This document shows positions 7,364 through 9,619 of a stretch of 32,031 nucleotides of DNA, one piece after another; positions within the stretch are counted from its first letter, which is position 1, and every line of letters starts with the position of its first letter. Under the pieces are notes generated by a model. It saw only the letters and a list, made by a program, of their open reading frames with translations, was not told the origin of the DNA and did no database searches. Position numbers and translations under genes: made by a program. Location of the stretch: the NCBI GenBank assembly GCA_001767605.1, contig MELM01000012.1:141697-173727 (forward strand), in the 5' to 3' direction. The DNA is from Candidatus Solincola sediminis. Lineage in GTDB: Bacteria; Actinomycetota; Geothermincolia; Geothermincolales; RBG-13-55-18.

Positions 7364-9193
7364 TTACTTAACGAAGCCCTCCGCAAAATACCATCTAACG
7401 GATGGCTCTGATGAGCCTATGGAATTACTGCCATCGCGAAGACCCCGGAAGTTAAAATACTCCGCTCTTTCAACCACGATCGGGTTATCGCTCGTGATCT
7501 TGGTGCTTACCTCTGTCGACTCCAACTGGCTCAGCTCGTCGACATGAATCGTGAAGCGGGAATGGGCCTGCAGTGACAATTGCCGGTTGACCTCGATGCC
7601 GTCGGGGCGCATGAATACGATATCAACATTGGCAGTAGCATCCCCGGGATTTAGCAGGAGGACGTAATCATCGAAATCCCCGCCCGTGTATCCTTCGGCG
7701 AGATACCATTCGTCCCTGGGCTCCGTCGCCCCTATCGTGACGTGGCCGCCCTTCTTGCTACCCTCGTAGTTGAAATACATCGCCCGTTCGGCGACAACGG
7801 CTCTATCCGAGTTCACTTGCGTCGATACCTCGGTCGATTCAAGACCAGGTATCTCATCGATGTGAAGAGTAAAACGCTTCCGGCCGGGCACGTTTACGGT
7901 CTTACTAATAACCGAACCGTCGGAGCGCATGAAATCAAGCTCGACATTCGCCGCATCGTCGTTAGGATTCTGCAGCAAGAGCCAGGTATCAAAGGAATCT
8001 CCTGTGTAGCCTTCGGCGAACAACCATTTGTTGGAAGGGGAACTCGCTCCTATGGTCTCCGAGCCGCCGTCCTTTCCCTGGTAGTTGAAATACATCGCCC
8101 GTTCGGCAACGATCGGTAGATCCGACGTAACCTGGGTTGAGACATCGGCCGATTCCAGACCGGATATTTCGTCGACATGAACGCTTCGCCTGCTGCTGCC
8201 GTCGACTGTTATCGTCTTCGTAATAGCCGCTCCATCAGGCTGCATGAACGTGAGATTAACGCTGGCATTGGCGGGGTTGGGATTTTGCAAGAGTATCCAT
8301 GTATCGAAGGTATCACCGGTATAGCCCTCCGCGAAGAACCAAGCGAGAGAAGGTCTCTCGGTTCCGATAGAACCATGGCCACCCGTCCGGCCCTGATACT
8401 TGAAGTACATGGCCCGCTCGGCGAGAACGGGCACACTGCTCTTGATATCGGTTGCGAATGACCCGCATCCCATGGTTTCCCTGACCGGCACCGTAAACCG
8501 GCTATTGCCCGCTATTTGATAATGGTAACTGTGATTTGCCTTGTCCTCCCCTTGAAAGGTAACATCCACATCCGCTTCGGTGTCGTTCGGATTCATAATC
8601 AGGATGTATGAGTCGAAGCTATCGGGCGACGCCGCAGCCGTCTGGGCCGGCGGTGGGCTCGCGACCGGTACGTCGGCGGTGGCTGGAATTGGTGAGAACT
8701 GCATGAACTCCTGAGTTATATAGAGGCAGCCCGGTCCCTGTACGATTCCCACGCCTATGCAGTTGAACTCAGCTCGTAAGATATTTTCACGATGCCCGGC
8801 GCTGTTCATCAAGGCCGTAAAAGCCGCATCCACGCTTGGTGCTTTTGCCAGATTCTCGCCAGCCAATTTCCAGCCGCTTATTCCACGCGCCTTGATGCGT
8901 TGTTTTAGATCACCGGAGACGGGGGAGACATGGCCAAAGAAATTATATTGAATCATTTCGGAAGAGTAGCTGCGGGCGAAATCGGTCAAGCGCTGTTCGG
9001 CATATAGGGAGGGCAGGCCCGCATTATTGCGTGCCTGATTCACCAATTGAATCATGCGGGCTTCATCAGCAGTAGTATTTACGGCGGCGGCGGCGGAGGG
9101 AGACAAGGTCAAGGATTGCAGCAGGCACACAGCAAGGAACATTAATCCGACCGTAACTATGGTAAGCCTGTGCCACCGGTTTAGCCCTTGCAT
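7364..9193 (-). CDS. Secreted CAP/SCP-domain (PR-1-like) protein with four tandem ~105-aa repeats
   Basis: Signal/TM segment LTIVTVGLMFLAVCLLQSLTLSPSAAAA; CAP domain IQLVNQARNNAGLPSL...GHVSPVSGDLKQRIKARGISGWKLAGENLA...NSAGHRENILRAEFNCIGVGIV; repeats of the form FDTWxLLQNPN...VAERAMYFNYQG...WFFAEGYTG. ATG at 9191-9193 has an AAAGGAG Shine-Dalgarno; the track start at 9232 does not. Confidence 0.9.
   Translation of the reverse strand: MQGLNRWHRLTIVTVGLMFLAVCLLQSLTLSPSAAAAVNTTADEARMIQLVNQARNNAGLPSLYAEQRLTDFARSYSSEMIQYNFFGHVSPVSGDLKQRIKARGISGWKLAGENLAKAPSVDAAFTALMNSAGHRENILRAEFNCIGVGIVQGPGCLYITQEFMQFSPIPATADVPVASPPPAQTAAASPDSFDSYILIMNPNDTEADVDVTFQGEDKANHSYHYQIAGNSRFTVPVRETMGCGSFATDIKSSVPVLAERAMYFKYQGRTGGHGSIGTERPSLAWFFAEGYTGDTFDTWILLQNPNPANASVNLTFMQPDGAAITKTITVDGSSRRSVHVDEISGLESADVSTQVTSDLPIVAERAMYFNYQGKDGGSETIGASSPSNKWLFAEGYTGDSFDTWLLLQNPNDDAANVELDFMRSDGSVISKTVNVPGRKRFTLHIDEIPGLESTEVSTQVNSDRAVVAERAMYFNYEGSKKGGHVTIGATEPRDEWYLAEGYTGGDFDDYVLLLNPGDATANVDIVFMRPDGIEVNRQLSLQAHSRFTIHVDELSQLESTEVSTKITSDNPIVVERAEYFNFRGLRDGSNSIGSSEPSVRWYFAEGFVK
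7367..8620 (-). repeat. Four in-frame tandem protein repeats (~105 aa each) encoded in the CAP gene
   Basis: Units beginning SFDSYILIMNPND, TFDTWILLQNPNP, SFDTWLLLQNPND and DFDDYVLLLNPGD, each ending near AEGYTG or AEGFVK. Coordinates approximate. Confidence 0.85.
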
Positions 9194-9253
9194 TTTGTGT
9201 TGCTCCTTTTTGTCCCCGTGGGCTGGTGGCAAATCTTCACTGAAAATAAATTC

Positions 9254-9275
9254 GCCCTTTCCGTCCGGAAAGGGC
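9254..9275 (-). terminator. Terminator-like hairpin, likely riboswitch expression platform
   Basis: Perfect inverted repeat GCCCTTTCCG-GA-CGGAAAGGGC followed on the minus strand by GAATTTATTTT; lies between the aptamer and the CAP start codon. Confidence 0.65.
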
Positions 9276-9282
9276 CCGCTTT

Positions 9283-9380
9283 GTAGGAGGCAGCCTGGCT
9301 GTCATTGTCGCTCTCGCGACTTTAGACCCGGGGCTTTGCGTCCTCTCCTTTCGGAAGAGTTTGCCTTTTGCACCAAAAGG
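9283..9380 (-). ncRNA. Cyclic-di-GMP class I riboswitch aptamer (GEMM-I)
   Basis: Minus-strand AAAAGGCAAACTCTTCCGAAAGGAGAGGACGCAAAGCCCCGGGTCTAAAGTCGCGAGAGCGACAATGACAGCCAGGCTGCCT. Has GEMM hallmarks: GGCAAAC, GAAA-capped hairpin, GGACGCAAAGCC, GGGTCTA, second GNRA-capped hairpin (GTCGC-GAGA-GCGAC), CAGCCAGGCTGCC, and AGGCA/TGCCT closing pairing. Confidence 0.93.
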
Positions 9381-9408
9381 GATATGTGGATTTCAAGGTT
9401 CGAATATT

Positions 9409-9436
9409 CTATCGGCACTTTGTATGGAATCCTTGA
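9409..9436 (-). promoter_or_regulatory. Candidate sigma28 (FliA/SigD)-like promoter ahead of the c-di-GMP riboswitch
   Basis: Minus strand TCAA-N16-GCCGATAG, close to the sigma28 consensus TAAA-N15-GCCGATAA; about 30 nt upstream of the aptamer. Confidence 0.5.
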
Positions 9437-9591: not shown

Positions 9592-9619
9592 GACCGGGAA
9601 GCATGCCCACTTTCCGGTC
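9592..9619 (+). terminator. Intrinsic-terminator-like hairpin oriented to the plus strand
   Basis: GACCGGGAAG-CATGCCCA-CTTTCCGGTC followed on the plus strand by TTTTCTTT; no T-tract on the minus side. Confidence 0.5.

Follow-up and report, generated by a model that had tools for sequence, protein, structure and literature searches.

How is the gene for a secreted CAP-domain protein of Candidatus Solincola sediminis regulated, and in which direction does the riboswitch in its leader act? The locus lies in a stretch of 32,031 nucleotides (assembly GCA_001767605.1, contig MELM01000012.1, positions 141,697 to 173,727 of the forward strand), referred to below as the window, the first letter of which is position 1. 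Taken together, the features of the leader and of its orthologs point to a transcriptional OFF switch of the c-di-GMP-I class (c-di-GMP, cyclic di-guanosine monophosphate) on a gene transcribed by a sigma factor of the WhiG/FliA type, a reading that we hold with a probability of about two in three. The riboswitch class is a known one, its expression platform is detailed and conserved, and the OFF direction is predicted from the arrangement of the parts. The features, approximately in the order of transcription, are:

9409..9436, minus strand: putative WhiG/FliA (sigma-28) type promoter, with the -35 element TCAAG (9436-9432), N15 and the -10 element GCCGATAG (9416-9409)
9373..9382, minus strand: outer long-range helix, 5' strand (UCCCU..UGG), which pairs with 9222-9213 and has double changes at three pairs in the 14 sequences
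9286..9375, minus strand: c-di-GMP-I (GEMM-I) riboswitch aptamer
9353..9365, minus strand: strand A, the aptamer 5' strand GGCAAACUCUUCC, proposed anti-aptamer partner
9339..9348, minus strand: strand B, the P2 3' strand GGAGAGGACG, proposed antiterminator strand
9254..9275, minus strand: terminator hairpin of 9 bp with a GGAC loop, the 5' arm of which (9275-9267) doubles as the antiterminator partner
9243..9250, minus strand: U-rich tract UUUAUUUU behind the hairpin
9228..9238, minus strand: strand A', the conserved anti-aptamer element GAAGAUUUGCC, between the terminator and the ribosome-binding site
9213..9222, minus strand: 3' strand of the outer long-range helix
9201..9210, minus strand: predicted ribosome-binding site (AAAAGGAG)
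7364..9193, minus strand: the regulated gene, encoding a secreted CAP-domain protein of 609 aa with four DUF5719-type repeats
9171..9177, minus strand: GGUGGCA in codons 6-8, complementary to UGCCACC at the A' end and a possible second partner of A'

Aptamer, terminator and the predicted direction of the switch

A cmscan search places a match to RF01051 (c-di-GMP-I, GEMM-I) at 9375-9286 of the minus strand with 73.9 bits and an E value of 6.4e-13; the match spans positions 1-87 of the 87-position model, against a gathering threshold of 35 bits. Riboswitches of this class are carried by 15 of the 31 genomes of the bacterial class (relatives and the own genome), and an orthologous leader precedes the CAP-DUF5719 gene in 14 of them, namely the window's own genome (G000, 92% complete) and 13 relatives from within its family and order; L-numbers below denote individual leaders or loci. 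GGCAAAC, the GNRA-capped P2 and CGCAAAG are all found in the aptamer and are invariant in the 14 orthologs. An earlier note on this DNA had recognized the GEMM-I signature, and every motif that it listed is present. The two genome searches proposed there had different outcomes: diguanylate cyclase domains are encoded in the genome, and the hunt for further GEMM copies ended with the copy at 9375-9286 (minus strand) as the only one in the 2.55-Mb genome. Judged by these features, the leader RNA is a c-di-GMP-I riboswitch of known class, and we infer that it binds c-di-GMP. That the aptamer might instead recognize another cyclic dinucleotide, 3',3'-cyclic GMP-AMP (cGAMP), as GEMM-Ib RNAs do, seems very improbable: the specificity position that reads A in cGAMP switches, which we take to be Vc2 position 20, is occupied by G in the window and, with few exceptions, in the relatives, and the diguanylate cyclase domains likewise argue for c-di-GMP. 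What speaks for cGAMP is that GEMM-I RNAs binding it were at first annotated as c-di-GMP switches (PMC9262584).

Behind the aptamer, the stem arms GCCCTTTCC/GGAAAGGGC (9275-9254) form a terminator hairpin that folds better than 200 of 200 shuffles (z -3.5) and is kept in 12 of the 13 relatives (13 of 14 leaders including the own one); it is lost in L006. The P2 3' strand, GGAGAGGGCG in most relatives and GGAGAGGACG in the window, is complementary to the 5' arm of this terminator. In the alignment, 96.2% of the cells of the resulting antiterminator are paired, compared to 59-73% when the strands are slid, and eleven relatives have a paired run of 9-10 bp (p 0.0005-0.007 when compared to shuffled arms), L002 one of 7 bp (p 0.02). 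Folding of growing transcripts, calculated as the equilibrium at each length and not as kinetics, yields the order aptamer, antiterminator, terminator, anti-aptamer in the 13 terminator-bearing leaders. The perfect hairpin of the earlier note is present, although with 9 rather than 10 bp and with GAA ahead of the TTTATTTT tract, and the termination control proposed there gains support from the family-wide antiterminator in competition with the aptamer, through which the switching would take place.

The OFF direction is predicted because the aptamer and the terminator coexist while the antiterminator is the competing fold, as in Cd1 of Clostridioides difficile, a proven OFF switch with antiterminator logic (PMC9262584); of the class I switches that are functional in this species, all seven are OFF (PMC6366702). 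The family has this Cd1-type layout, that is, a terminator compatible with the aptamer and an antiterminator that uses an aptamer strand, with an antiterminator of only 7 bp in the window. The statement in the earlier note that the direction cannot be read from the sequence alone therefore appears too cautious, given that we infer an OFF switch from the layout of the relatives. An ON switch, in which the ligand-bound aptamer would block termination as in the cGAMP-responsive pilM riboswitch of Geobacter, is improbable. The same aptamer fold indeed serves ON control in Geobacter (PMC9262584), but the terminator there uses aptamer strands, whereas in the present leaders the aptamer and the terminator do not overlap and can coexist, and it is the antiterminator that shares a strand with the aptamer.

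A proposed anti-aptamer element behind the terminator

The leader contains one more conserved part, the A' element (GGAAGAGUUGCC or GGAAGAUUUGCC), which has a mean column identity of 93% compared to 70% for the spacer in which it lies. It pairs with the aptamer 5' strand GGCAAACUCUUCC, and the outer helix UCCCUG..AGG/CCU..CGGGGA lengthens this pairing. The whole anti-aptamer helix is found in the same register in 14 of 14 leaders, with 96.4% of cells paired compared to at most 65% when slid. Its three pairs that changed on both sides, one of them the window's change from A-U to U-A at alignment columns 17 and 207, were equalled in 2 of 500 shuffles and, leader by leader, the duplex between the 5' strand and the spacer beats shuffles with p of about 0-0.02. 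As an account of the leader, the earlier note was right on the aptamer and the terminator and missed both this element and the WhiG-type promoter upstream. A role of such a latch as a general feature of the class was considered and rejected: of 56 leaders from outside the family, no more than 14 have such complementarity at p <=0.05. In one relative (G014), a second aptamer-terminator leader (L029, G014:C158:6098-6187) precedes a glycoside-hydrolase-like gene; in this copy, A' is diverged and the promoter motif is degenerate, with the aptamer and the terminator kept.

Under the predicted OFF mechanism, RNA polymerase would start at the WhiG-type promoter, which has its -10 element some 35 nt ahead of the aptamer. 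If c-di-GMP is bound, P2 would stay shut, the terminator would form behind the aptamer and transcription would halt. Without c-di-GMP, the P2 3' strand would pair with the emerging 5' arm of the terminator, which would be bypassed; A', just upstream of the ribosome-binding site, would then pair with the aptamer 5' strand, so that the binding pocket could no longer form in the finished mRNA. The secreted CAP protein would be made when WhiG is active and c-di-GMP is low. If true, the leader would offer a clear example of a riboswitch in which a latch past the terminator locks the aptamer once the decision is made.

Several observations weigh against this scheme. The antiterminator of the window itself is only 7 bp long and as a run alone is not significant (p 0.23), the changes in the antiterminator among orthologs are one-sided only, and the orthologs are related to each other, so that this and the other shuffle numbers are not strict probabilities. 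The U tract is interrupted and begins 3 nt past the stem. The finished terminator always beats the antiterminator at equilibrium; therefore, the model requires kinetic control, as Cd1 does. Finally, termination is not the whole story because L006 has lost the terminator but retains A'.

The case of L006 also favors an alternative under which control is mainly translational, the hairpin attenuates constitutively or serves as a structural spacer, and A' decides the outcome by pairing with either the aptamer 5' strand or GGUGGCA and thereby altering ribosome access. GGUGGCA is much better conserved than the codons after it (column identity of 96% vs 63%) although the encoded residues differ, and the A'/GGUGGCA pairing dominates in several orthologs when the aptamer is enforced in the fold. 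Mainly translational control nevertheless appears unlikely, given that a terminator with a 5' arm matching the P2 strand is kept in 13 of 14 orthologs. Occlusion of the ribosome-binding site by the A'/GGUGGCA pairing was examined separately; the predicted access hardly differs between the states, with no consistent change, and this candidate is retained as a rival only. In two distant Actinomycetota leaders (L064 and L074), which precede GH26-like secreted proteins, the likely start codons are located within a few tens of bases of the aptamer, too close for a terminator to fit in between, which points to translational control in these cases.

WhiG-type promoters and targets across Actinomycetota

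The most interesting point, absent from the earlier note, is the linkage of these riboswitches to WhiG-type promoters across the phylum. The predicted OFF switch of the window stands behind a sequence that resembles a promoter of this type: compared to the flagellar/WhiG consensus, with TAAA at -35 and GCCGATAA at -10 (PMC8325347), arranged as TAAA-N15-GCCGATAA, each element has one departure and the spacer is one base longer. The elements have approximately the flagellar spacing, the cognate sigma factor is encoded in the genome, and the assignment of the promoter to this factor is by consensus match only. The pattern T(A/C)AA-N16-17-(C/T)CGATA occurs upstream of the aptamer in 13 of 14 orthologs, and a standard sigma-70 scan found no promoter. 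Across the phylum, the motif is present within 130 nt upstream in 47 of 109 c-di-GMP-I loci, compared to 11 of 3454 other sequence windows of the same loci. With the own class left out, it is found at 33 of 92 loci (Fisher p 5e-46 against the background), and the comparison with riboswitches for thiamine pyrophosphate from the same phylum, where it is found in 0 of 30 loci (two of these may be misplaced at contig edges), gives p 2e-5; the sampled loci are not phylogenetically independent, so that these p values state the case at its strongest and are not exact.

Two sigma factors of the WhiG/FliA family are encoded in the genome, one of which is a WhiG equivalog above the cut-off (399 bits) that adjoins rpsB-tsf; no flagellin match was found in the genome. 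Behind the second WhiG-like gene (L076), the opposite strand encodes a response regulator and a sensor kinase, and the response regulator gene has a WhiG-type motif of its own, TAAAGGGAAAAATGGTTTCACCGATA, about 53 nt upstream (G000:C32:28936-28961, L185). An attempt to derive the regulon from a genome-wide promoter scan was abandoned, with 30 matches compared to 15 for the reversed control pattern, too few for the purpose. A literature search, the coverage of which did not extend to most subscription papers, found no report of c-di-GMP-I riboswitches with WhiG promoters or CAP proteins.

The regulated gene starts at an ATG (9193-9191) preceded by AAGGAG. In accord with the earlier note, which had described a repeat-bearing, secreted CAP-domain protein, the 609-aa product matches the CAP domain profile PF00188 (E 4.9e-13, 50.4 bits with a cut-off of 21.1) and DUF5719 (PF18986; E 4e-20), and contains four repeats of about 100 residues each and a predicted Sec-type signal peptide. 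Its closest named relatives, with 55-61% identity over nearly the whole protein, come from Candidatus Solincola and other metagenome-assembled genomes of Actinomycetota. That note identified the CAP gene as the target and missed that c-di-GMP-I RNAs recur in front of CAP genes throughout the phylum: among 89 downstream proteins (the own ortholog set was cut to three, and the choice of open reading frames was automatic and is wrong in some cases), the prepilin N-methylation motif is the most common (22), followed by the CAP domain (17). Other targets are subtilases and glycoside hydrolases of the families GH26, GH16, GH5 and GH39. One of the target proteins has sigma-70 regions; in L101 (G210:C1:2063821-2065645), the c-di-GMP-I RNA lies upstream of an open reading frame resembling a sigma factor, which in that lineage may itself be under riboswitch control.

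Upstream of the CAP gene is a sortase with a best match to class E, which scores under the curated cut-off of that model; downstream are a convergent VanW-like gene and then the L21-L27-Obg genes. Just past the end of the minus-strand sortase gene, there is a terminator-like hairpin on the plus strand (9592-9619, GACCGGGAAGC..CCGGTC TTTTCTTTAC), with no evident plus-strand gene for it to end. The own 2.55-Mb genome contains 53 DUF5719-type matches, many in open reading frames of 600-1500 aa; these proteins are a strongly expanded secreted repeat family of unknown function.

It can be tentatively proposed, as a scenario that is plausible but short of probable, that in much of Actinomycetota c-di-GMP-I switches and WhiG/FliA-type sigma factors form one regulon, in which surface genes (prepilins, CAP proteins, glycoside hydrolases, subtilases) would depend on WhiG to initiate transcription and on low c-di-GMP levels for the transcript to be elongated and, in the presence of RsiG, c-di-GMP would have two points of action on a single transcript. 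RsiG is the anti-sigma factor that, armed by c-di-GMP, holds WhiG in Streptomyces and Rubrobacter (PMC8325347); if the proposal is true, in RsiG-bearing lineages c-di-GMP would both sequester the sigma factor and terminate the transcripts that escape. No protein with the exact RsiG motif E-X3-S-X2-R-X3-Q-X3-D was found in G000, at its 92% completeness, and this genome therefore gives no support to control of the sigma factor by c-di-GMP. Matches to the motif in 30 genomes of the class are at the control level and none is RsiG-like; the rejected candidates are a histidine kinase (with T for S), leucyl-tRNA synthetase and out-of-frame stretches. Such control may exist in other lineages with the promoter-riboswitch pair. 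Knowledge of c-di-GMP regulation in actinobacteria is scarce outside Streptomyces, and the combination of a WhiG-type promoter with a c-di-GMP riboswitch would provide a concrete candidate for the WhiG regulon in lineages without flagella. It would also place secreted CAP-domain proteins, the bacterial roles of which are mostly unknown, under the same control as type IV pilins.

Comparison with known systems

The RsiG-(c-di-GMP)-WhiG system of Streptomyces and Rubrobacter (PMC8325347) has a counterpart here in the WhiG equivalog and the flagellar-type promoter (TAAA / GCCGATAA) in a genome with no flagellin match. Unlike in that system, c-di-GMP would act on an RNA leader, and no protein with the RsiG motif was found; the word riboswitch is absent from the text of the respective paper. 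With the GEMM-Ib, cGAMP-responsive pilM riboswitch of Geobacter (PMC9262584), the leader has the aptamer fold in common but differs in the G at the specificity position and in a terminator built without aptamer strands. The closest parallel appears to be Cd1, in front of the flgB operon of C. difficile (PMC9262584, PMC6366702), with its class I aptamer, coexisting terminator, competing antiterminator and OFF direction. In contrast to Cd1, the leader described here has, downstream of its terminator, one more conserved element, which pairs with the aptamer 5' strand; its target is a CAP-repeat protein, and a putative WhiG-type promoter is located directly upstream.
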